From positions 5,258,501-5,322,500 of the forward strand of contig NC_008786.1 of assembly GCF_000015565.1 (NCBI RefSeq): DNA of 64,000 nt, given 5' to 3'. Shown one piece after another: positions 1,525-24,279 of the stretch. The translations under genes were made by a program, and so were the position numbers. The DNA is from Verminephrobacter eiseniae EF01-2. Its GTDB lineage: Bacteria; Pseudomonadota; Gammaproteobacteria; Burkholderiales; Burkholderiaceae_C. The notes beneath the pieces were generated by a model, which saw only the letters and a list, made by a program, of their open reading frames with translations, searched no databases and was not told where the DNA came from. The number at the start of each line of letters is the position of its first letter. Position 1 is the stretch's first letter.

Positions 1525-2028
1525 ATGGCCCAGAACCTGCTCGCCGTTTACCCCGGCACCTTCGACCCGATCACGCTAGGCCATGAAGACGTGGTGCGCA
1601 GGGCCACCCAGTTGTTCGAGCGCGTGATCGTGGCCGTGGCGGCGGGCCATCACAAAAAGACCTTGTTTGCGCTCGACGAGCGCATCGAGATGGTGCGCGA
1701 CGCAGTCAAGAACTACCCCCGGGTGCAGGTGGAGAGCTTCGCCGGCCTGTTGCGCGATTTCGTGGTCGCGCGCGGCGGCAAAGCCATGGTGCGCGGCCTG
1801 CGCGCCGTGACCGACTTCGACTACGAATTCCAGCTCGCCGGCATGAACCGCAGCCTGATGCCCCAGGTCGAGACCGTGTTCCTCACCCCCGGCGACAAGT
1901 ACCAGTTCATCAGCAGCACCTTCGTGCGCGAAATCGCCGCGCTCGGCGGCGAGGTGCACAAGTTCGTCTCGCCAGCCGTGCAGGAACGCCTGCAAGCCAA
2001 AGTACGCAGCCAGGCAGCGCAGGAGTGA
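1525..2028 (+). CDS. coaD: Phosphopantetheine adenylyltransferase
   Basis: CoaD transfers AMP from ATP to 4'-phosphopantetheine, the penultimate step of coenzyme A synthesis. The 167-residue protein has the nucleotidyltransferase signature YPGTFDPITLGH (residues 9-20, with TxGH) and the C-terminal ISSTFVRE motif near residue 127. Length is normal for the family. The start at 1525 is preceded by a strong ribosome binding site (AGGAAGGAG, 1506-1514). The rsmD-coaD order is common in betaproteobacteria and supports both calls. Confidence 0.97.
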   Translation: MAQNLLAVYPGTFDPITLGHEDVVRRATQLFERVIVAVAAGHHKKTLFALDERIEMVRDAVKNYPRVQVESFAGLLRDFVVARGGKAMVRGLRAVTDFDYEFQLAGMNRSLMPQVETVFLTPGDKYQFISSTFVREIAALGGEVHKFVSPAVQERLQAKVRSQAAQE

Positions 2029-2038
2029 TGTTTGCCCC

Positions 2039-3283
2039 ATGTCCAGTCTGTTCTCGCCCGCCCAATGCTGGTCTTTGGCCGACCGGTTCGCAACCCCGCT
2101 GTGGGTGTATGACGCAGCCACCATCGTCGAGCGCATCGCCCGGCTGTCCCGGTTCGACACCATCCGCTTTGCGCAAAAAGCCTGCTCGAACATCCACATC
2201 CTTGCGCTGATGCGCGCGCAGGGCGTGCTGGTCGATGCGGTCTCGCGCGGCGAGATCCTGCGGGCGCTGGCCGCCGGCTACCAGACCGGCGCCCAGCCCG
2301 CGCAGATCGTCTTCACCGCCGACCTGTTCGACGCCGCCACGCTGGCCTGCGTCATCGAGCATCGCGTGCCGGTGAACGCCGGCTCGATGGACATGCTGCA
2401 CCAGCTAGGCCCGCGCTCGCCCGGCCACGCGGTATGGCTGCGCATCAACCCCGGCTTTGGCCATGGCCACAGCCACAAGACCAACACCGGCGGCGAACAC
2501 AGCAAGCACGGCATCTGGCACACCGACCTGCCGGCCGCGCTCGCCGCCATCAGGCAGCATGGCCTGGACCTGGTGGGCCTGCACATGCATATCGGCTCGG
2601 GCGTGGACTACCGCCACCTGGCGCAGGTCTGCGACGCCATGGTGGCGCTGGTGCGCGGCGTGCGCGCGGCAGGGCATGATCTGCGGGCGATATCGGCCGG
2701 CGGCGGCCTGTCTGTCCCGTACCGCAGCGGCGACCCGGTGGTCGACACGGCGCATTACCACGGCCTGTGGGAAGCGGCGCGCCAGCAGGCCCAGGCCATC
2801 ATCGGCCACCCGCTGACGCTGGAGATCGAGCCGGGCCGCTATTTGGTGGCCGAATCGGGCGTGCTGCTCGCTGCGGTGTGCGCGACCAAGCAGGTGGGCA
2901 GCAACCACTTCGTGCTGCTCGACGCGGGCTTCAATGAACTGCTGCGCCCCTCGATGTACGGCAGCTACCACGCGATGAGCCTGCTGCGGCGCGACGGCGC
3001 CAGCGCCGCCGGGCGCCCCACCGTGGTGGCCGGCCCGCTGTGCGAAGCGGGCGACGTATTCACGCAAAGCGGCGACGGCCTGGTGCTGCCACGCGACCTG
3101 CCCCCCGCCGAGGTGGGCGACCTGCTGCTCATCCATGACACCGGGGCCTACGGCGCGACCATGTCCTCCAACTACAACACCCGCCCCCTGAGCGCCGAAG
3201 CGCTGGTCGAAGGCGCCCAGGCCCGGCTCATCCGCCGCCGCCAGACGGTCGACGAACTGCTGGCGCTGGAACGGGGGCTTTGA
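2039..3283 (+). CDS. lysA: Diaminopimelate decarboxylase
   Basis: LysA is a PLP enzyme converting meso-diaminopimelate to L-lysine. The 414-residue sequence has the PLP lysine in FAQKACSN (K47), HMHIGSG near residue 181, EIEPGR near 260 and CEAGD near 335, the fold-type III decarboxylase set. Carboxynorspermidine decarboxylase is related but shorter and less similar over these motifs, so LysA is preferred. It starts 10 bases after the coaD stop. No lysR-type regulator lies beside it. Confidence 0.9.
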   Translation: MSSLFSPAQCWSLADRFATPLWVYDAATIVERIARLSRFDTIRFAQKACSNIHILALMRAQGVLVDAVSRGEILRALAAGYQTGAQPAQIVFTADLFDAATLACVIEHRVPVNAGSMDMLHQLGPRSPGHAVWLRINPGFGHGHSHKTNTGGEHSKHGIWHTDLPAALAAIRQHGLDLVGLHMHIGSGVDYRHLAQVCDAMVALVRGVRAAGHDLRAISAGGGLSVPYRSGDPVVDTAHYHGLWEAARQQAQAIIGHPLTLEIEPGRYLVAESGVLLAAVCATKQVGSNHFVLLDAGFNELLRPSMYGSYHAMSLLRRDGASAAGRPTVVAGPLCEAGDVFTQSGDGLVLPRDLPPAEVGDLLLIHDTGAYGATMSSNYNTRPLSAEALVEGAQARLIRRRQTVDELLALERGL

Positions 3284-3596
3284 GCACCCCCTCGAGCATC
3301 CCTTTGCGCGCCCGTTCCAGGCCCGCGCCACCACGTTGGACACAGCGGCGCAGGCCAGCGCGCACCACGGTGGGCTGGCCGACGATGCCGGCGCGCCGCC
3401 GATGAGCGGGGTTGGTGCGCAGAACCGGCAGCGCAGGCAGGCGCACGCGCCCCAAGCCCCAAGACGGCTCTGGCATGTATGTTGCGCGCGCTGCTGCGGG
3501 CAGGGCTTTCCTTGGCTCATGCCCGGTCAGGGGCACCATGCCCGCGCCAAAGTGCTGTCGTGCGGCGTCTTTCATTCACTCCAGCGGAGTTTCCCG
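3284..3596. other. Intergenic stretch without recognised gene
   Basis: These 313 bases separate lysA from the binding-protein gene. No open frame here resembles a known family, and no riboswitch or obvious terminator was seen. Confidence 0.5.
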
Positions 3597-4643
3597 ATGG
3601 GCATTTCCACCCCTGTGCGGGTATCTTGCGGCGCCAGCGGGCCGGCGGGCTGGACCCGCCGGCTGTTCAAACCCTTGCTCAGCCTGGTGCTCGCCGCCGC
3701 TGCAAGCGCTGCGTCCGGCGCCGGTCCGGCGCGCATGAAGATCGGCACCACGGTCTGGATCGGCTACGGGCCTTTTTACGTGGCCGAGGCGCTGGACCTG
3801 TACAAGAAGCACAACCTGCAGGTATCGCTGCAGGTGTTCAGCGATCCGGCGCTGATTGCGTCCGCGATTGCCAGCGGTGCGATCGACGGCGGCACGCTGA
3901 CCTATGACCAGGTGATCGGCCAAGTGGCCGCAGGCCGGGCCCAGAAAGTGGTGCTGCCGATCGATTACTCCAACGGCGGCGACGCCATCGTGGCCGACAA
4001 GACCATTGCCAGGCTGGCCGACTTCAAGGGCCAAAAAATCGGCTTCAACCCCTTGTCGCCGTCCGACTTTCTGCTGACCTATGCCCTGAAGACGGCCGGT
4101 CTGACGGACAAGGACATCACCCCCGTCAGCATGACGCCCGAAAGCGTGCCTGCGGCGATGGCCTCCGGCCAGATGTCCATCGGGGTGACCTATGAGCCCA
4201 GCCTGTCGCAGATCCTCGGCCAGGGCGGCGGCAAGAAATTCAAGGTGGTTTTTTCCTCCAGGGAAACGCCGGGCCTGATTGCCGATGTGCTGGTGTTCGA
4301 CGACAAAACCATACAGGCCAGGCCGGCCGAGATTTCCGCCATCATCGGGGCCTACCTCGATGGCCTGGCGTACATGAAGGCCAAACCGGACGATGCCGCC
4401 AAGATCATTGGCAAGTTCATGGGCGTGACGCCCAAGCAGGTCAAGGAACAGCTCTCCGGCGTGTACAACATCCCGATGGCTGAAATGCCCAAGGCTTTCG
4501 CCAAATCCGCAGACACCACCTCCTACTACGGCAGTGCCGAGGTGATCGGCAAACTGCTGCTGGACAAGGGCCAGATCAAGGCCATTCCTGCGATCGAGGC
4601 CACGATGGACGCGCGGTTCGTGACGGCCCTGACGAAAAAGTGA
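3597..4643 (+). CDS. NitT/TauT-type ABC transporter substrate-binding protein
   Basis: This 348-residue protein has a basic N-terminus and a hydrophobic stretch (about residues 24-44) ending in an Ala-rich cleavage region, so it should be exported. The mature part begins MKIGTTVWIGYGPFYVAEALDLY, typical of the SsuA/TauA/NMT1-like binding proteins for sulfonates, nitrate, thiamin precursors or other small organic compounds. No permease or ATPase gene is next to it; instead it is followed by a broken desaturase and a creatininase relic, so it may be the remnant of a larger transport/catabolic cluster. The substrate cannot be read from the sequence. Confidence 0.8.
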   Translation: MGISTPVRVSCGASGPAGWTRRLFKPLLSLVLAAAASAASGAGPARMKIGTTVWIGYGPFYVAEALDLYKKHNLQVSLQVFSDPALIASAIASGAIDGGTLTYDQVIGQVAAGRAQKVVLPIDYSNGGDAIVADKTIARLADFKGQKIGFNPLSPSDFLLTYALKTAGLTDKDITPVSMTPESVPAAMASGQMSIGVTYEPSLSQILGQGGGKKFKVVFSSRETPGLIADVLVFDDKTIQARPAEISAIIGAYLDGLAYMKAKPDDAAKIIGKFMGVTPKQVKEQLSGVYNIPMAEMPKAFAKSADTTSYYGSAEVIGKLLLDKGQIKAIPAIEATMDARFVTALTKK

Positions 4644-4699
4644 GCCGGGTTGCCAAACCATTGCCATTGCCAAGGCCAGGCCCGGACGCATTCCGCCGG

Positions 4700-5915
4700 A
4701 TGGAGACCCACGCCATGCCATCCATCTACCGCCATCCCGATGGCGTCTGGCCCAACACCCTGGCGCTGGCCGCCACGCTGCTGACTTACCCGGCGGGCCT
4801 GGGTCTGCTGCTGGTGCCCGGCATGGGCTGGGCGCTGGCGTGCAATGCGCTGGGCCTGTTCCTGCTGGTGCTGAGCCTGGTGTCGCGTCACCGATCATCT
4901 GTCGGTCTGCGCTGGCCATCGAAGCGCATCGCGGCGTTGCATCGCTTGCCAATACAGCTCGGTATGGGCTGCGCGATGCGCCTTGCGCTGCGCTCCGATG
5001 GCGGCGCGCAGCCTGCGACATCTGATCCGTGACGCGACACTAGTCTGTTCCGCCTATTTCATCCACGAGTTTGCGCACCAGACGATTTTCAGGAGCGCGC
5101 AGGCGAATGCCCGCTGGGGCCTGCTGATGGGTTGGTTGAACGGCAGTTGTTTTGCGCGTTTCGACGACCTGCGGCGCAAGCACATGCGCCACCATCTGGA
5201 GCGGGCCGATGTTCTGACGTTCGATGCCAAGGGATTTTTGCTGCGCTCACCGGCGTGGTTGCGCCGCACCGTCGTGGCACTGGAGTGGGCTTACTTCCCT
5301 GCGGTCGAGTACCTGATGCGCGCCTTCGTGATCCTGATGCCGTTTCGCGCGGGCGGCACGGCGTCTGCGCGCCTGCGTATCGTGGCCATCGCGCTGCTGC
5401 GGCTGGCGGCGCTGGCGCTGCTGGCCATCGCCTCGCCCAAGGCGCTGCTGCTGTATTGCCTGGCGGTTCTGATCTTCATCACCGTGCTGCGCTTTGCCGA
5501 CTGCTTTCAGCACACCTACGACGCCTATCCGATCCTGGACGACAGGCCCTTGCCGCAAGACAAGATACGCGACCGCGACTATGGGCAGGCGCATACGTTC
5601 ACCGATGTGGCGGGCGTTTCCGACGCATGGGGCCATGCCCTGCTGAACATGGTGTGGCTGAACTTCGGTTTCCACAACGCGCACCACGAACGCCCCACCG
5701 TGCCCTGGCACCGTTTGCCGGCCTACCACCGCACGCTGTACCGGCCAGACCATGCACAGGTGATTACCGTGGGCGAGTTGCTGCACAGCTTTCATGCCAA
5801 CCGCATCCGGCGCATTTTTGCGCAAGACTACGGCCAGGTGGGGCCGTTCGGCACACCGGGCCGGGCCGATCGCTTCGTGGGCGCCGTCGGCGTCTCATTT
5901 CTGACGGCGGTTTGA
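4700..5915 (+). pseudogene. Fatty acid desaturase-type gene interrupted by a MITE-like element
   Basis: The N-terminal part (4700-4880) encodes hydrophobic segments in one frame. The rest (5044-5915) continues in another frame with the three histidine boxes of membrane desaturases/hydroxylases: HEFAHQ, RRKHMRHH and HNAHHERP. A 159-bp element at 4881-5039 splits them and introduces a stop at 5030-5032. Joining CTGG (4877-4880) directly to base 5044 restores an uninterrupted frame reading LSLVCSAYF, so the gene was intact before insertion. The start may be 4700 or 4715. The substrate class (lipid or small molecule) is unknown. Confidence 0.85.
4881..5039 (+). mobile_element. MITE-like element, copy A (159 bp)
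   Basis: The ends are inverted repeats: TGTCGCGTCACCGATCA at the left, and the right end read on the other strand is TGTCGCGTCACGGATCA. About 24 bp can be paired with a few mismatches. It is flanked by CTGG and CTAG, which fits a 4-bp target duplication of type CTRG. There is no transposase frame inside. It is nearly identical to the copies at 6045, 13941 and 15443 and has the same orientation as the copy at 13941. Confidence 0.9.
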
Positions 5916-15672: not shown

Positions 15673-17559
15673 ATGACCGCGCCCGGGGGTCGCCCGCTGG
15701 CCCGTTGCGTGATGGTGCTGGGCACCAGCAGCGGCGCGGGCAAGAGCTGGCTGGCCACGGCGCTGTGCCGCTGGTACAGCAACCAGGGGCTCAAGGTGGC
15801 GCCCTTCAAGGCGCAGAACATGAGCAACAACGCCCGGGTGGTGCCCGGCCCGGGCGGCGCGATGGGCGAGATCGGATCGGCGCAGTACTTCCAGTCGCTG
15901 GCCGCCCGCGCCGCGCCCGAGGTGCGCATGAACCCGTTGCTGCTCAAGCCCGAGACCGACACGCGCAGCCAGGTCGTGCTGCTGGGGCAGGTGCATGCCG
16001 ACCTGGGCGCGCTGCCCTGGCGCGGCCGCAGCGCCAGGGTCTGGCCGCAGATCGCCGCTGCGCTGGATGCGCTGCGCGCGCAAAACGATGTGCTGGTCAT
16101 CGAGGGCGCAGGCTCGCCCGCCGAGATCAACCTGTATGCCAGCGACATCGTGAACCTGCGCGTGGCGCGCCATGCCGCTGCCCGCTGCCTGTTGGTGACC
16201 GACATCGACCGGGGCGGCGCGTTTGCGCACCTGTACGGCACCTGGGCGCTGCTGCCCGAGGCCGATCGCCGCTCGATCTGCGGCTTTGTGCTCAACAAGT
16301 TTCGCGGCGATGCCGCCCTGCTCGACCCGGCGCCGCAGATGCTGCAAGCGCTGACCGGCGTGCCCACCGTGGCCACCATTCCGATGCAATGGCAGCATGG
16401 CCTGCCGGAAGAAGACGGCATGTCCGACGAACGCAGCCAGGGCGTCGGCGCCGTGCACACCACCGTGGCCGTGGTGGCCTGCCCGCGCATCAGCAACCTC
16501 GACGAATTCCAGCCGCTCAGAAACCTGCCCGGCGTGCGCCTGCTGTGGGCGCGCAGCCCCGCCGATCTGGCCGGGTTGCGGGCCACGGACTGGGTCATCC
16601 TGCCCGGCTCCAAGGCCACCGCCGCCGATCTGGCCTGGCTGCGCGCGCAAGGTCTGGACCAGGCCATCGCCACCCATGCCGCGCAGGGCGGCATGGTGCT
16701 GGGCATCTGTGGCGGGCTGCAAATGCTGGGCGAGGCCCTGATCGACAGCGCCGGCATAGACGGCAACGCGCCGGGCCTGGGCCTGCTGCCGCTGGTCACC
16801 CGCTTCGAGCCGGCCAAGACCGTGCGCCGCACCCGGGTCCGCTTTCCCGCACTGCAAGGCGCCTGGGCCGCGCTATCGGGCCTGCAGGCCAGTGGCTACG
16901 AAATCCACCACGGGCAGACCGTCCTGCATCCGGCTGCCATGAGCGCCGCCCGGCCGCCCGAAGGCGCTCATACCGCAGCCGCAGGCGAAGGTATTCCAGT
17001 GACCGCCGCCCGGCCGCCCGAAGGCGCCCATACCGCAGCCGTAGGCGAAGGTATTCCAGTGACCGCCGCCCGGCCGCCCGAAGGCGCTCGCACCGCAGCC
17101 GCAGGCGAAGGTATTCCAGTGACCGCCGCGCTGTCGCCCGAAGGCGCTCATACCGCAGCCGTAGGCGCAGGTATTCCAGTGAGCGCCGCCCGGCCGCCCG
17201 AAGGCGCTCATACCGTAGCCGCAGGCGCAGGTATTCCAGTGACCGCCGACCGGCCGCCCGAAGGCGCTCATACCGCAGCCGCAGGCGAAGGTATTCCAGT
17301 GAGCGCCGGCGGCGGCCTGGCGCGCGAGCTGATCCCCGGCCTGGCCTGGCAAAACGGCGCCGGCAATGTGCTGGGCCTGTATCTGCACGGACTGCTGGAA
17401 GACCCCGCAGCGCTGCAAGCCCTGTTTGGCCGCGCTGGCGCAGCCGCCTTGCCGACCCCGGACGCCATGTTCGACGGCCTGGCCCGCACCGTCGATGCCT
17501 GCTTTGCGCCGGGCGTTTTGCAGGCGTTGATCGCACCCGGGCCAGCGCCTGCCGCCTGA
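15673..17559 (+). CDS. cobQ: Cobyric acid synthase with a 120-residue repeat insertion
   Basis: CobQ amidates adenosylcobyrinic acid a,c-diamide to adenosylcobyric acid using glutamine and ATP. The N-terminal synthetase domain has VLGTSSGAGKS near residue 15 and PFKAQNMSNN near 48. The GATase domain has the nucleophile Cys in LGICGGLQMLG near residue 345, YEIHHGQT near 412 and the catalytic His in LGLYLHGLLED near 570. Length is 628 residues against about 490 usual. The excess is six 20-residue repeats (about residues 423-542) placed between two conserved GATase segments. Because frame and all motifs are kept, the enzyme may still work. Confidence 0.93.
   Translation: MTAPGGRPLARCVMVLGTSSGAGKSWLATALCRWYSNQGLKVAPFKAQNMSNNARVVPGPGGAMGEIGSAQYFQSLAARAAPEVRMNPLLLKPETDTRSQVVLLGQVHADLGALPWRGRSARVWPQIAAALDALRAQNDVLVIEGAGSPAEINLYASDIVNLRVARHAAARCLLVTDIDRGGAFAHLYGTWALLPEADRRSICGFVLNKFRGDAALLDPAPQMLQALTGVPTVATIPMQWQHGLPEEDGMSDERSQGVGAVHTTVAVVACPRISNLDEFQPLRNLPGVRLLWARSPADLAGLRATDWVILPGSKATAADLAWLRAQGLDQAIATHAAQGGMVLGICGGLQMLGEALIDSAGIDGNAPGLGLLPLVTRFEPAKTVRRTRVRFPALQGAWAALSGLQASGYEIHHGQTVLHPAAMSAARPPEGAHTAAAGEGIPVTAARPPEGAHTAAVGEGIPVTAARPPEGARTAAAGEGIPVTAALSPEGAHTAAVGAGIPVSAARPPEGAHTVAAGAGIPVTADRPPEGAHTAAAGEGIPVSAGGGLARELIPGLAWQNGAGNVLGLYLHGLLEDPAALQALFGRAGAAALPTPDAMFDGLARTVDACFAPGVLQALIAPGPAPAA
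16939..17310 (+). repeat. 60-bp in-frame repeat array, 6 copies, in cobQ
   Basis: Units start at 16939, 16999, 17059, 17119, 17179 and 17239, with a truncated seventh at 17299. Each encodes a peptide of type SAARPPEGAHTAAAGEGIPV. Copies differ by a few substitutions only. It is the same family as in rsmD. Confidence 0.97.
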
Positions 17560-17726: not shown

Positions 17727-18596
17727 TCAGGCCGGGACGAACAGCGCCGGGTCCACCATGGTGCGGTTGAGCACCACGCTCCAATGCAGGTGCGGGCCGG
17801 TCACGCGGCCAGTGGCGCCCACGGCGCCCAGGTGCTGGCCGGTTTGCAGCACATCGCCACGCTGCACATCGATGGCGCTCAGATGGCACACCATGCTCAG
17901 CAGGCCCTGGCCGTGGTCCAGCCAGACCGTGTTGCCGTTGAAGAAATAGTCCCCCGTGTCGATCACGCGCGCAAGCAGCGGCGCCGCAATCGATGTGCCC
18001 GTGGCGGCGGCAATGTCCATGCCGCTGTGCGGACTGCGCGCTTGCCCGTTGAACACGCGCCGCAGCCCGAACGAGCCAGAGCGCGGCCCCGGCACCGGCG
18101 CCTGCATGCGCAGTGACGGCGCGGCGCGGCCCGCAGGCTGCTCGGTGAACGTGGCAATCACCAGCGCCTGGTGCGCGCGCTCGCGCTGGTGGCGCGCCAG
18201 GTCTTCGGGCGACAGGTCCACCATGCGCGGCGGCACCGTCAGGTGCTGCTGCGGGTACTGCTTGGTGCCTATGGTGTAGGGTAGCGGCCGGCTGCCGGCG
18301 CCATCGGCGCCATCTGCTTGCACGCTGATGCACGCCGGCCCCGGCGGCGCCGCCAGCGCAATGCCCACCACCGCAGTCCACGCGCTGGCATCGCCTTGCA
18401 CCAGCACCGGCACATCCAGATGGCCCTGGCGCTGGTGCGCGACAGGCCGTGCGGCGCCAGCGCCCAGCGCCAGGCGCGCCACGCCGCCGGGCACCGGCAG
18501 CGCCTGCGGCCACACAGCAGCGGGCGGCGGCGTGGCGCCAAGGTCCAGCGCCAGCAAGCTGCCGGTGCCAGCCAACGCAGCACGGCGGTTCATCAT
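17727..18596 (-). CDS. M23 family metallopeptidase, exported
   Basis: The 289-residue protein starts MMNRRAALAGTGSLLALDLGA, an export signal. The C-terminal LytM domain shows SFGLRRVFNGQARSPHSGMDI (first zinc ligands His and Asp) and VTGPHLHWSV (HxH), the complete M23 zinc site, so it should be an active peptidoglycan endopeptidase or hydrolase. The central GTKQYPQQHL...RHQRERAHQALV part is common to this M23 subgroup. Its ATG overlaps the stop of the upstream ligase gene by 4 bp. Confidence 0.9.
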   Translation of the reverse strand: MMNRRAALAGTGSLLALDLGATPPPAAVWPQALPVPGGVARLALGAGAARPVAHQRQGHLDVPVLVQGDASAWTAVVGIALAAPPGPACISVQADGADGAGSRPLPYTIGTKQYPQQHLTVPPRMVDLSPEDLARHQRERAHQALVIATFTEQPAGRAAPSLRMQAPVPGPRSGSFGLRRVFNGQARSPHSGMDIAAATGTSIAAPLLARVIDTGDYFFNGNTVWLDHGQGLLSMVCHLSAIDVQRGDVLQTGQHLGAVGATGRVTGPHLHWSVVLNRTMVDPALFVPA

Positions 18597-20377
18597 GGCG
18601 TTTTCACTTCCCGCAGTTCAGGGTATTTTTCTTCTTGGCGGCGCAGGGCAGCCACTGCGGCGCGGTAGTAATACGGCCCGTATATTCCCCGGATGATCTT
18701 CATTTGCCGGCTCGCCTCCTGCGGCCGGCCATTGAGCCCCAGCGCCAGCGCGTAGCGCAATGTGAGCGAGCCATAAGGAAAGCGCAGCGCGACCTTGCGC
18801 AGGTTCTGCATCTCCTGCGCAGTCATGCCTCTTTTGGCCTCTTGCCGGGCCGCATCGAGCATGCTGCCCAGCTGCGAAAGCAGCCAGATATGCTCAGGCG
18901 GCCGGTAATCGGCAGGGGTCTTGCCAATGCGCAGATTCTCGAAGCGCACGACGCGAAAATCTTCCTCTATCTGCATGTACTCATGGACTGCGTAGCAACC
19001 CAGCGCAAACCATGCACCGAGAAAAACGCCAAAGAACCGCCGTGGCATCACGGCCGGGGCCGCATCTTTCCACGCGGCCTCGACGATCCCGGCCATCAGC
19101 CCCGCAGCCAGCAGAAAATACGAATAGGCAAACGGATACTCCAGCAGGCTATGGATGGCAATGGGGAGCAGGCAGGCCATCGCGTACAGCGGATTGACCT
19201 GCCTGAGGGCATGGATGCGCGACAAAAACCAGTAGATGCCGGCCAAGGTCAGGGCCAAACCCACGGGAATGCCATTCCAGGCCATCAAATCGAGCACCAC
19301 ATTGTGCGCATAGCTCAGGGACAGCGAGCCTGGCGAATCGAGGGGGCTGGCCATCTGCGCCGTGGCGGTCTGATTCCAGCCATACCCGACCCAGGGCGAC
19401 TCCAGAATGCCGCCCCATACCTGCCGCCAGATAAAAAACCGCCCGTTGTCGCGCAGCAGGCTCAGACTGCGCCCCTCGTCCATCAGCAATGCGGCATGAA
19501 CCCAAGGCAATGCCTGCAAGGCCAGCAGAAAGCACAGCAGCCAGCCGACCGCATGCCAAGGGCGAATGCGCGTTGCGGCGCGATGGCTTTTCCAGACGAA
19601 CAGCGGCACCACGACCAAGGCGCTCAATATCCCGGCGCGCGATTGCGTCAGCACCAAGACCAGTGTCAAAAATCCTGTGGCGCAGAGCAAGCCTGTGGCG
19701 CCAATGCGTTTGCGCTCATAGGTCCAGGCCAGCGCCGCAATACCCATCAGCAGCAGGCTGGCCAGTTGATTGGGCTGGCCCATATTGCCCATCGCGCGGT
19801 CCCCGACATCGGTCTGCACCACATATATTCCCAGCGGTTCTTGCAGATTCAGCCATTGCAGCAGGCCAATGGCCGCAGAAACCAGGGCCACAAAACCGAT
19901 GACAAGAAAAACCGGGGCCAGGCTCTGCAGCGCATCGGCTGCGTCGCGCGCATAGGCATAACCCAGTGCAACGGCAACGGCCAGCGCGCACAGGTACAGG
20001 GAAACGATGACGGCATCCCCGGCAAACAGCGATATGCCGGCAAACCACTGCAACCACGGCAGCGTGGCCAAAATGACCAGCCCCCAAGCCAGTCGCGGGA
20101 CGATGAGGCCCCCCCTGTCTCTTTGCGCGTCGGGGACGACCCACCTGCTTGCGGCCAGCAGGCCAATACCCAGCAGCGCCAGCGATTCGGCAGGAAAATT
20201 GAGCCACGGCCGGTTATGGTCATAAGACAACCAGGCCCAGGCGAAAACGAGAATGCCAAAGGCATGCAAAAGGGAGGCGGGCATCGACCTGAAGGAGGTC
20301 ATTCCATTGACGGGCATCCGCCTGTTCCAGCGTGGCATGGGTTGAAGATGGGTCTGAGACGGATAGGGGTTGATCAT
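18593..20377 (-). CDS. O-antigen-ligase/PglL-type polytopic membrane protein (probable pilin glycosyl ligase)
   Basis: This is a 594-residue protein with about twelve membrane spans. The Wzy_C/O-antigen ligase region includes MGNMGQPNQLASLLLMGIAAL and LTQSRAGILSALVV, and a large loop contains WRQVWGGILESPWVGYGWNQ. The soluble C-terminal part (PPEHIWLLSQLGSM onward) resembles the Wzy_C_2 region of PglL/TfpO oligosaccharyltransferases. Position directly downstream of two type IV pilin genes supports a role in pilin O-glycosylation; general O-antigen ligase remains possible. The start is uncertain: ATG at 20377 is used, GTG at 20398 is also in frame, and neither has a clear ribosome binding site. 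Confidence 0.75.
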   Translation of the reverse strand: MINPYPSQTHLQPMPRWNRRMPVNGMTSFRSMPASLLHAFGILVFAWAWLSYDHNRPWLNFPAESLALLGIGLLAASRWVVPDAQRDRGGLIVPRLAWGLVILATLPWLQWFAGISLFAGDAVIVSLYLCALAVAVALGYAYARDAADALQSLAPVFLVIGFVALVSAAIGLLQWLNLQEPLGIYVVQTDVGDRAMGNMGQPNQLASLLLMGIAALAWTYERKRIGATGLLCATGFLTLVLVLTQSRAGILSALVVVPLFVWKSHRAATRIRPWHAVGWLLCFLLALQALPWVHAALLMDEGRSLSLLRDNGRFFIWRQVWGGILESPWVGYGWNQTATAQMASPLDSPGSLSLSYAHNVVLDLMAWNGIPVGLALTLAGIYWFLSRIHALRQVNPLYAMACLLPIAIHSLLEYPFAYSYFLLAAGLMAGIVEAAWKDAAPAVMPRRFFGVFLGAWFALGCYAVHEYMQIEEDFRVVRFENLRIGKTPADYRPPEHIWLLSQLGSMLDAARQEAKRGMTAQEMQNLRKVALRFPYGSLTLRYALALGLNGRPQEASRQMKIIRGIYGPYYYRAAVAALRRQEEKYPELREVKTP

Positions 20378-20624
20378 CACGGGGATGGTAACCAACACGG
20401 ACGGGGGCCGGCCGCAGACGAAGGCACCCCCAACCCGGCCACCATGGCAATGGCCGCCTCTGGCCGATCACCGTGCTTCACAGCGTTGCCATGCGCTGAC
20501 CAATCGCATGGCAAGCCACTTTGCCGAGATGGTTGAGTAGATCGCATCTCAAACCCCAAACCCACGGCCCGCTGCTCGCGTTGGCGGGAACAACCGCTCG
20601 CAGACGGTGGCGCTGAAAGCGCAT

Positions 20625-20650
20625 AAAAAAGCGGCCGAAGCCGCTTTTTA
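20625..20650 (-). terminator. Rho-independent terminator of pilin gene 1
   Basis: The minus strand has a 10-bp stem AAAAAGCGGC/GCCGCTTTTT with a TTCG loop and a T run, 15 bases after the pilin stop. Confidence 0.9.
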
Positions 20651-20665
20651 TGGACAACACGAGAA

Positions 20666-21210
20666 TCAGGTACTAGCGGGTGCGCGGCACGAACCGGGCA
20701 AGTACTTGGTGGGAATACCGTTAGTTATGCCGGGACCGCAGAGCCAAGCGACTACATTCGTGCCCAACGCAGGTTGCAAGCAAGTCGTAAAAGTGGTTTG
20801 ATCGCTTGCCGCGCAGGGAGACAATATGATGGTTTTATCATCGATCGCGGTTCCGAGATTTCGCATCGTCACAGTCACACGGCCACCACCTGCATTGCCA
20901 GCGTTGGATGCGGAGGTTGCCACCGACTTCACGTACTTGGTGCTGGAGACATCCGATATTTCACAGCCCCAGCCATTGTCTCCGATGACCGCGTTGGAGG
21001 CTGCGGATTGGATCACTTCGGTGATGGTGGTGCGACACGCTGATCCGGCCAGAATGCCCTCGGATACCCTGGCGCGCTTGGTGTAGTCCTGGTAGGTCGG
21101 CAAAGCGACGGATGCCAAGATACCGATGACCGCAACCACGATCATCAGTTCAATCAGGGTGAAACCCTGCTGGCCCGTCCTGAGAGAGAGAGAGAGAGAG
21201 AGCGCTTCAT
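20666..21210 (-). CDS. Type IV pilin (pilin 1), phase-variable, currently out of frame
   Basis: From the start ATG at 21208-21210 (ribosome binding site AAGGGGA upstream) the frame reads MKR, then runs through a (CT)10C tract and stops soon after. The pilin proper is in another frame: [30 protein letters not shown], then [22 protein letters not shown] and a C-terminal disulfide loop. Removal of one CT unit gives [15 protein letters not shown] as leader, joined in frame to FTLIEL. The repeat therefore encodes only leader residues removed by prepilin peptidase. The mature part is close to pilin 2 (21900-22439). In this sequence the gene is OFF; an assembly error in the repeat cannot be excluded. 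Confidence 0.85.
21182..21202 (-). repeat. (CT)10 dinucleotide tract in the pilin 1 leader codons
   Basis: There are 21 bases of alternating G and A on the plus strand (CT on the coding strand), eight bases after the start ATG. Ten units put the gene out of frame; nine units would put it in frame. Confidence 0.97.
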
Positions 21211-21277
21211 CATCAAAAATCCCCTTAAAGTCAAGAGTTACGAAAGAAAAGAAAGTTTACGCGCACTCAAGGGGCCG

Positions 21278-21293
21278 AGCAATTGTCATGCCT
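21278..21293 (-). promoter_or_regulatory. Sigma-54 promoter of pilin 1
   Basis: The minus strand reads AGGCATGACAATTGCT, with GG and GC separated by ten bases. It matches the sigma-54 consensus TGGCACG-N4-TTGC at most positions, about 70 bases upstream of the start. PilR/sigma-54 control is standard for pilA. Confidence 0.75.
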
Positions 21294-21858: not shown

Positions 21859-21884
21859 AAAAAAAGCGGCCGAAGCCGCTTTTT
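21859..21884 (-). terminator. Rho-independent terminator of pilin gene 2
   Basis: Same 10-bp stem, TTCG loop and T run as after pilin 1, 16 bases beyond the pilin 2 stop. The duplication of the pilin gene evidently included its terminator. Confidence 0.9.
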
Positions 21885-21899
21885 GGAATGGCACGAGAA

Positions 21900-22439
21900 T
21901 CAACTGGTACCACTGGCAGGAGTGCGGCACGAACCGGGCAAGTACTTGATGGAAACACCGTTGCTCAAGCCGGGACCGCAGAGCCAAGTGGCCACATTCC
22001 CGCCCAATGCAGGTTGTTTGCATTCCCCCAAAGTGGCTTGCGTGCTTTCCGAGCAGGGAGCCAGCACGATGGTTTTTTCATCGACGCCATCTCCGATATT
22101 TCGCATCGTCACCGTCACGACGGCGCCGCCTGTATTGCCAGCGTTGGTTGCGGCGGTCGTGACCGACTTCACGTACTTGGTGCTGGAGGTCTCCGATATT
22201 TCACAGCCCCAGCCATTGGCTCCGATGATCGCGTTGGAGGCTGCGGATTGGATCACTTCGGTAATGGTGGTGCGACAGGCCGAGCCGGCCAGAATGCCCT
22301 CGGATACCTTGGCGCGCTTGGTGTAGTCCTGGTAGGCCGGCAAGGCCACGGAAGCCAGGATGCCGATGATCGCAACCACGATCATCAGCTCGATCAAGGT
22401 GAAACCTTGTTGACTCTTGGGGCTGGAATAGCGCTTCAT
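21900..22439 (-). CDS. pilA: Type IV pilin, intact (pilin 2)
   Basis: This is a 179-residue prepilin: leader [12 protein letters not shown], then [24 protein letters not shown] with Glu at mature position 5, an alpha helix ([22 protein letters not shown]), and a Cys-containing C-terminal region. The ATG at 22437-22439 follows a good ribosome binding site (GGGAGG). Mature pilin subunits assemble into type IV pili for adhesion, twitching and DNA uptake. It is a close paralogue of pilin 1 with a normal leader in place of the CT tract. The symbol is by family resemblance; assembly genes are elsewhere. Confidence 0.93.
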
Positions 22440-22478: not shown

Positions 22479-22494
22479 CGCAACTGCCATGCCG
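22479..22494 (-). promoter_or_regulatory. Sigma-54 promoter of pilin 2
   Basis: The minus strand reads CGGCATGGCAGTTGCG, GG-N10-GC, about 40 bases upstream of the start codon. It has the same layout as the pilin 1 promoter. Confidence 0.75.
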
Positions 22495-23178: not shown

Positions 23179-23889
23179 TCAGCCGTGCTCGAACCGCATT
23201 TCGGTGCCGGCCAGTTGGAGCCGGTCACCGTTTTTCAGCGGCACGGGCGTCGTTCCTATCAACGCCCCGTTGAGCTGCGGCATGTCGGGGCCTTCGACAT
23301 GGGCCAGCACGAAGTCCTGCTGCCGCTTGGTGATGGAGGCGATGGCGACGCCCGGTTTGCCAATGGTGGTCACTACTTTCTGCAAGGCCACGGTGCGCCC
23401 GGCTGCGGCGCCCGAGATGACACGGATGAGGGCGCTGGCAGAGGCCAAAGCCGGGGCGGCGGGAGTGGCCGGGGCCGTTGGGGCGGTTGGGGCGATCGGT
23501 GCAGCCGGGGCGGCCTTTGCGGCCGGCGCGGGCAGCGGCGCTGCGCCTGAGTTGCCGAGCTTGGCGAACGATGTCTTGTCGTAGCTGCGGTCTCCGGCTC
23601 TCTGCACGAAGCGGATTTTGTACTTGCCCAGTTCCACCGTGTCGCCGTTGCGCAGTGCCTGGCGTTTGATGGCCTTGGCGTTGACGTAGGTGCCGTTGGT
23701 GCTGCCGAGGTCTTCGATCTCCACGCCCTGGCTCGCCATGTCCATGTGGATCACGGCATGCTCTCCGCTGACGGCAAGGTGATCGATCGCGATGTCGTTG
23801 TACGGGCGCCGCCCCAGCGTGGTCCGCTCTTTGGTCAGTTGTACTTCCCTGACGACGACCCCGTCGATTGAAACGATCATTCTGGGCAT
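23179..23889 (-). CDS. FHA-domain protein
   Basis: The 236-residue protein has an N-terminal forkhead-associated domain: TTLGRRPYNDIAIDHLAVSG, then EDLGSTNGTYVN, giving the GR, SxxH-like and TNG motifs that bind phosphothreonine. An Ala/Pro linker (about residues 116-145) joins a second, diverged FHA-like domain (TTIGKPGVAIASITKRQQDF, then LNGALIG and LKNGDRLQLAG). There is no signal peptide. FHA proteins read Ser/Thr-kinase signals; no kinase or phosphatase gene is nearby, so the partner is unknown. The start is the ATG before MIVSIDG. Confidence 0.88.
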   Translation of the reverse strand: MPRMIVSIDGVVVREVQLTKERTTLGRRPYNDIAIDHLAVSGEHAVIHMDMASQGVEIEDLGSTNGTYVNAKAIKRQALRNGDTVELGKYKIRFVQRAGDRSYDKTSFAKLGNSGAAPLPAPAAKAAPAAPIAPTAPTAPATPAAPALASASALIRVISGAAAGRTVALQKVVTTIGKPGVAIASITKRQQDFVLAHVEGPDMPQLNGALIGTTPVPLKNGDRLQLAGTEMRFEHG

Positions 23890-24279
23890 GATCCATATCC
23901 TGATGTGGTGAATGGCTGTGGTTCGGACCCTGCGGGCGACCCCCGGTATCTGGGTCCTGTCCGGGCCTTGCGCGGGTTGGGCGATGTCTGCGACGATCGA
24001 ATCCGGGGTGTGTTGCAAATCCTCACGATAATACCATCTACCATCCGCGCCACCGGTCCGATGGCATTGTTGCCATCTCCCGGCGCTGCGGTGGTCTGTC
24101 TCTGGTTTGTCTCTGGCTTGGCGCCGATCCCGGTGGCTTGGTCGTTTTCACGGACTTATCCATGATCCATGCATCGGGACGGCCGACGGCGGCGCAAGCG
24201 CCGTTTGCATCGGCGGTGACGGTCGTGCGCCGTGGCCGGGACTGCGCTGCGCATCAGCCGCAGCGCAGTCCCGGCGCAT
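23890..24279. other. Intergenic region between the FHA gene and sppA
   Basis: 390 bases with no recognised gene. It contains the long hairpin at 24236-24274. Confidence 0.5.
24236..24274 (-). terminator. Long hairpin just after sppA, possible transcription end
   Basis: A perfect 16-bp stem (CCGGGACTGCGCTGCG with its complement) and 7-base loop begin 5 bases past the sppA stop. There is no T run, so termination would be rho-dependent, or the hairpin protects the mRNA 3' end. Confidence 0.5.

Follow-up and report, generated by a model that had tools for sequence, protein, structure and literature searches.

Most of the familiar examples of genes switched by changes in repeat number come from pathogens that live on mucosal surfaces. 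In the opa genes of Neisseria the repeat lies in the signal-peptide codons, and the mature protein is left unchanged. Expression of opa is governed by a CTTCT tract (PMC5953494; here and below, papers are cited for the parts of their text that were available), and several Gram-negative bacteria vary phase by means of dinucleotide tracts (PMC5953494). The type IV major pilin of Neisseria has ON and OFF states caused by frameshifts: pilE frameshift variants are acquired from silent copies (PMC4877100), and poly-C tracts and further repeats that could switch pilE occur in some of the pilS copies (PMC5953494). The Neisseria genes pilC and pgl are likewise switched by repeats and act on type IV pili (PMC5953494), and in Streptococcus gallolyticus the number of GCAGA repeats in a short leader frame controls the pil1 pilus (PMC3894217). 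Here we analysed a (CT)10 tract in the leader codons of a type IV pilin gene of Verminephrobacter eiseniae EF01-2, within a stretch of 64,000 nucleotides (contig NC_008786.1, positions 5,258,501 to 5,322,500; hereafter the window, in whose coordinates features are given). This strain is a nephridial symbiont of the earthworm Eisenia fetida, and both the host and the gene are unexpected for a repeat of this kind.

The locus is very probably a slipped-strand contingency gene with an Opa-like layout, built on a duplicated type IVa pilin and OFF in the assembly at ten units. A first-pass annotation, made from the DNA letters and their open reading frames, had recognised the layout of a contingency gene. 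The arrangement of the leader, the frame arithmetic and the intact mature frame support that view, and the strongest backing comes from protein records with leaders of other lengths.

The tract and the reading frame of the pilin

The tract, C(TC)10, occupies 21 nt of the minus strand (21182-21202) and reads as alternating G and A on the plus strand. It is preceded by tandem start codons, ATG ATG, read from the sequence at 21208-21213 on the same strand, the first at 21213-21211 and the second at 21210-21208. The tract begins 8 bases after the first ATG and 5 after the second; the first-pass annotation had given eight bases, which is correct for the first of the two. At ten units, translation from the ATG ran for 19 codons and then met a stop at 21156-21154, and frame computation thus gave a short OFF product at 21154-21213 (minus strand). 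The first mature codon of the pilin begins at 21163; its frame is shifted by 2 nt relative to the ATG and stays open as far as a stop at 20666. An open prepilin frame was computed for 6, 9, 12 and 15 units, every third unit number opening the frame. The earlier statement that ten units give a premature stop and nine a normal prepilin was therefore borne out, with 6, 12 and 15 units also in frame. The tract lies wholly within the codons preceding the G/F cleavage site, in agreement with the claim that it encodes only leader residues that are removed.

The mature-pilin frame of the tract gene (20666-21163, minus strand; FTLIEL to the stop, 165 codons) showed no lesion besides the leader frameshift. 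The hallmarks of a type IVa pilin were present, namely the G/FTLIE prepilin site and the Pilin domain PF00114 in the window frame (E 5e-14 from an internal ATG), and the best PDB matches were PilE chains (E 7e-18). The product would presumably be a major pilin, as first proposed. Upstream, as far as the stop at about 21259, the pilin frame contained no ATG, GTG, TTG or CTG and a single ATT, which abuts AAGGGG. An ordinary alternative start for the tract pilin at ten units was ruled out, as none of these four codons opens the frame upstream.

Length variants and rarity of the tract

Two protein searches yielded 173 different pilins, taken from the best 120 of 7,697 and the best 120 of 7,991 hits. 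An (SL)n leader is present in three of the listed pilins, in each case with the sequence MMKR(SL)nRTGQQG. P0001 (n = 5) has a leader of 20 residues, the length computed for 15 CT units; P0002 (n = 4) has 18 residues, as computed for 12 units; and P0040 (n = 2) has 14 residues, as computed for 6 units. As far as protein records can show, repeat length is therefore not uniform, the leaders implying 6, 12 and 15 units against 10 here. Nine units does not appear to be fixed, and no nine-unit allele is among the three (SL)n-leader proteins listed. These alleles are protein records, from which the CT repeats were deduced.

P0001 carries PF07963 and PF00114, and its mature part is identical to that of the window's tract pilin at 165/165 residues, so the same pilin is found at ten units, with the frame closed, and apparently at fifteen, with the frame open. 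In the protein search P0002 was 82% identical to the window's tract pilin and P0040 60% identical; in a separate alignment P0002 matched at 148 of 176 aligned residues. Since the tract leader precedes these diverged mature pilins, it outlasted their divergence. It thus seems that the unit number changes and the mature protein does not. Leaders of type IVa pilins are usually under about 10 residues long; the in-frame alleles, at 14, 18 and 20 residues, depart from this trait, which is usual and not absolute.

To estimate chance expectation, 400 kb of the genome (20 stretches of 20 kb) were sampled and used to fit a first-order Markov model, which gave about 4e-7 (GA)10 runs per 5.6 Mb. Dinucleotide runs within the sample reached a maximum of 6 units, with three occurrences. 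When both strands of the whole genome were searched (two contigs, 5,597,943 bases; the large contig 5,566,749 bases), (GA) runs of at least 7 units occurred in two places only, the pilin leader and a (GA)27 tract in a DUF1631 gene. The (CT)10 of the pilin leader exceeds both the chance expectation and the cut-off of 8 units for phase-variable dinucleotide tracts (PMC5953494).

Among relatives, no CT run of at least 4 units was found within 60 bases upstream of prepilin sites, either in 29 fetched loci (0/40 sites) or in 80 genome_contigs loci (0/101 sites, one with (GC)5); the latter are the best 80 of 504 relatives, from which records very close to the window's genome may be missing. A plain (GA)8 occurs in 4/47 genomes of the genus, the window's genome counted. 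In the other three (G069, G024 and G008), whose CT runs have 9-12 units, nothing prepilin-like was seen in the frames examined. The CT/GA runs of G024 and G008 (L151 and L152; 11-12 units) apparently occupy the same locus, with a short frame, MSIQAINVRNQFKG..., behind the run in L152, and are possibly a promoter- or leader-region repeat.

Duplication, proposed switching and rival explanations

A tract-free paralogous pilin (21900-22439, minus strand; PF00114 and PF07963) adjoins the tract pilin. Over 559 bp of DNA the two copies share 84% identity; the alignment runs from directly after the tract to a shared terminator-like hairpin, GC-rich and followed by a T-run, which lies 3' of the tract pilin at 20625-20649 and 3' of the tract-free pilin at 21860-21884 (both minus strand). 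No similarity between the copies was found upstream of the aligned 559 bp. Matches at 9 of 11 positions to the sigma-54 promoter lie 5' of both pilins (21279-21293 and 22480-22494), but the window holds 19 such matches on the minus and 23 on the plus strand, and they were rejected as evidence. The genome does have an rpoN gene. Further 3' of the pilins is a PglL-type O-oligosaccharyltransferase gene (18593-20398, minus strand; PF11846, PF04932 and PF15864 PglL_A), and PglL of V. eiseniae EF01-2 is tabulated beside a pilin in PMC3643930 (Table 1).

In all six relatives' loci that were read fully (G030, which is V. aporrectodeae-like, and five more chosen among the best matches), a single pilin lies between PglL and a putative FHA-domain-like gene, the homologue of 23179-24018. 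The pilin of G030, which belongs to the same genus, is P0018 of V. aporrectodeae letter for letter. The tract pilin is a duplicate, and the best explanation places the duplication beside PglL in the V. eiseniae lineage. Duplication as a special feature was dropped, two or more pilins being present in 8/29 fetched relatives' loci. The whole genome gave two full pilin copies and six other matches that cover the N-terminal part only.

The ratio of nonsynonymous to synonymous substitution rates (dN/dS) between the window pilins was 0.52 overall, with 0.07 in codons 1-28, 0.17 in codons 29-60, 0.62 in codons 61-100 and 0.89 in codons 101-165. The assembly helix is under constraint, and the C-terminal part is diverging almost freely. 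The low values in codons 1-60 indicate that the tract pilin has been selected, at least in its assembly helix.

In a tree of mature pilins, both window pilins grouped with P0001, P0002, P0003, P0005 and P0261 (support 97/92). P0040 fell just outside this group, with a support of 91/87 that is below the tree tool's 95/80 mark. As P0040 has the tract leader, either this leader is older than the divergence of the two window pilins or their history has been obscured by exchange between the copies. In P0005 and P0261 the leader is that of the tract-free pilin and most of the body matches the tract pilin, a combination that suggests exchange between the tandem pilins unless these records are assembly chimeras. 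The first-pass annotation had described a second, constant pilin next to the tract gene. The neighbour is there and lacks the tract, but in view of these mosaics its constancy is not proven.

We propose that slipped-strand mispairing during replication would add or remove CT units in the pilin leader. At unit numbers divisible by three the prepilin frame would be open and only the length of the leader altered, and other numbers would stop translation early. Because prepilin peptidase (gene present, PF06750) would remove the leader, the assembled pilin should be the same at any in-frame unit number. At ten units, with the tract gene OFF, the tract-free pilin would be the only subunit available for pili; the ON state would add or substitute a second pilin, differing mainly in its C-terminal half. 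Since the tract-free pilin is always readable, switching would be expected to change the composition of the pilus and not its presence. By inference, switching would occur in real time in cells and be reversible within a clone, the ON form would be expressed and processed, and the pilus might be affected.

Several observations weigh against this proposal. A mutS gene is present in the genome, so no general mutator state or high slippage rate is implied, and at dinucleotide tracts in Neisseria no length changes are reported (PMC5953494). The variant alleles were seen as protein alone, beside the DNA of one strain. A full-length protein can come only from an in-frame allele, which biases the listed sample to ON, and the proportions of ON and OFF cannot be read from it. 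Errors are possible in P0002, where the conserved helix contains unusual residues (FPLIELMS) and for which no contig is listed; for P0001 the source is given as '-'. Leaders of 14-20 residues are long and uncommon, compared with 8 residues in 123/173 listed pilins, and their processing is only predicted. The dN/dS near 0.9 in codons 101-165 fits relaxed constraint as well as diversification.

That ratio (0.89), together with the closed frame in the assembly and an intact adjoining paralogue that could cover the function, is also what a decaying duplicate would give: a redundant second pilin knocked out by repeat expansion and heading for loss, its length changes useless noise. However, the same leader is in frame in three further records, and in one of these the mature protein is identical; the mature frame here is otherwise undamaged; codons 1-60 are strongly constrained; and the tract leader stands also before the diverged P0002 and P0040, having outlasted their divergence. 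We regard decay as distinctly improbable. A slip in sequencing, cloning or assembly, with the real strain in frame and the gene simply ON, is unlikely. Dinucleotide runs are prone to slippage in cloning and in the polymerase chain reaction, and all other alleles seen (6, 12 and 15 units) are in frame, but full-length proteins can reveal no other kind. Those alleles also differ among themselves, so the length varies in any case, and an error would alter the present state and not the kind of locus. The repeat number might instead serve mainly to adjust the efficiency of processing or translation, with OFF states as a by-product. The three leader lengths of the in-frame alleles, and the scarcity of such long leaders among the 173 listed pilins, would suit such tuning. 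It is nonetheless very improbable, as two-thirds of unit numbers close the frame and single-unit slippage from an open state yields OFF cells.

Possible role, other repeats and known systems

In V. eiseniae, pilBC mutants have no visible pili and lose embryo colonisation, and transformation is significantly reduced in pilBC and pilT mutants (PMC4212676, PMC3975124). If the pilin is a contingency gene, we can tentatively imagine that in a vertically transmitted mutualist a repeat switch in a duplicated pilin leaves one-subunit pili on some cells and two-subunit pili on others, as a hedge between tasks such as colonising embryos and taking up DNA. Piliation would be guaranteed by the copy without the tract; the switched copy, in which the C-terminal half has diverged fastest, would be a reversible modulator such as a competence brake, and together with the (GA)27 tract in the DUF1631 gene it might form a small phasome outside pathogens. 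This host is a genetically tractable mutualist whose type IV pili are important in embryo colonisation and natural transformation, so the purpose of stochastic pilus switching outside immune evasion is directly testable.

In the literature covered (most subscription papers lie outside it), no paper was found to describe a type IV pilin with a dinucleotide switch in its own leader. It also gave no report of phase variation in Verminephrobacter, although the primary genome and colonisation papers were outside this coverage, and the result is no proof of novelty. The papers that name both 'Verminephrobacter' and 'phase variation' do not, in their available parts, concern a pilin-leader switch. 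PMC4212676 lacks 'phase varia' and mentions 'pilA' a single time, within a reference, and PMC3975124 lacks 'phase'.

The (GA)27 tract lies at G000:C2:5253682-5253735 (L049:9682-9735), ~26 kb from the pilin tract and about 4.8 kb left of the window. It splits the DUF1631 gene into two Pfam pieces, the N-terminal piece running off frame after the tract and the C-terminal piece starting from an ATG just behind it. The best DUF1631 match lay in a single open frame of 802-931 codons in 41/46 relatives searched and in frames of 458, 597, 747, 766 and 767 codons in the other five, compared with 488 codons here; in G030, G018 and G027 this match is partial or a distant paralogue. Of the nearest database proteins, P0122 and P0123 begin at the ATG behind the tract and P0121 begins inside it, and P0122 (V. 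eiseniae) is 93% identical to the protein of the window's genome. Because none of these three is a full-length in-frame allele, and a genuinely split gene fits too, (GA)27 was not counted as a second proven switch; it is a possible second contingency locus.

The 400-kb sample also contained a heptanucleotide run, (GCAACAG)8, between two long frames (L133:1131-1186; G000:C2 about 941131). In the window, a cobyric-acid-synthase-like frame (15673-17559) includes several almost identical units in succession (AARPPEGAHTAAAGEGIPVT...), and units resembling them recur in an L133 frame (1584-4997). As a guess, they may correspond to VeiPR1, which PMC3975124 names as a dispersed palindromic repeat.

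Two closely related pilin genes, as found here, are also present in Pseudomonas stutzeri as pilAI and pilAII. PilAII is reportedly a competence brake, and we know of no repeat switch in this pair. The pil1 leader of S. gallolyticus resembles the present locus in that repeat number in a short frame controls a pilus, but it is a separate regulatory peptide that acts by transcription attenuation on a sortase pilus, and here the repeat is inside the pilin gene. The repeat-switched pilC and pgl are accessory or glycosylation genes of type IV pili, whereas here the pilin itself carries the repeat. Neisseria pilE/pilS shares frameshift ON and OFF states of a type IV major pilin; there the frameshift is either brought in from silent copies by recombination or located in the mature part, whereas here the repeat sits in the leader of a complete gene that has a start of its own, and exchange between the two V. 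eiseniae pilin copies is only hinted at by P0005 and P0261. With opa the locus shares a coding repeat that would switch a surface protein by frame. The two have no sequence kinship, and they differ in the repeat, a pentanucleotide in opa and a dinucleotide here, and in the removed segment, which is a Sec signal peptide in opa and a prepilin leader in V. eiseniae.
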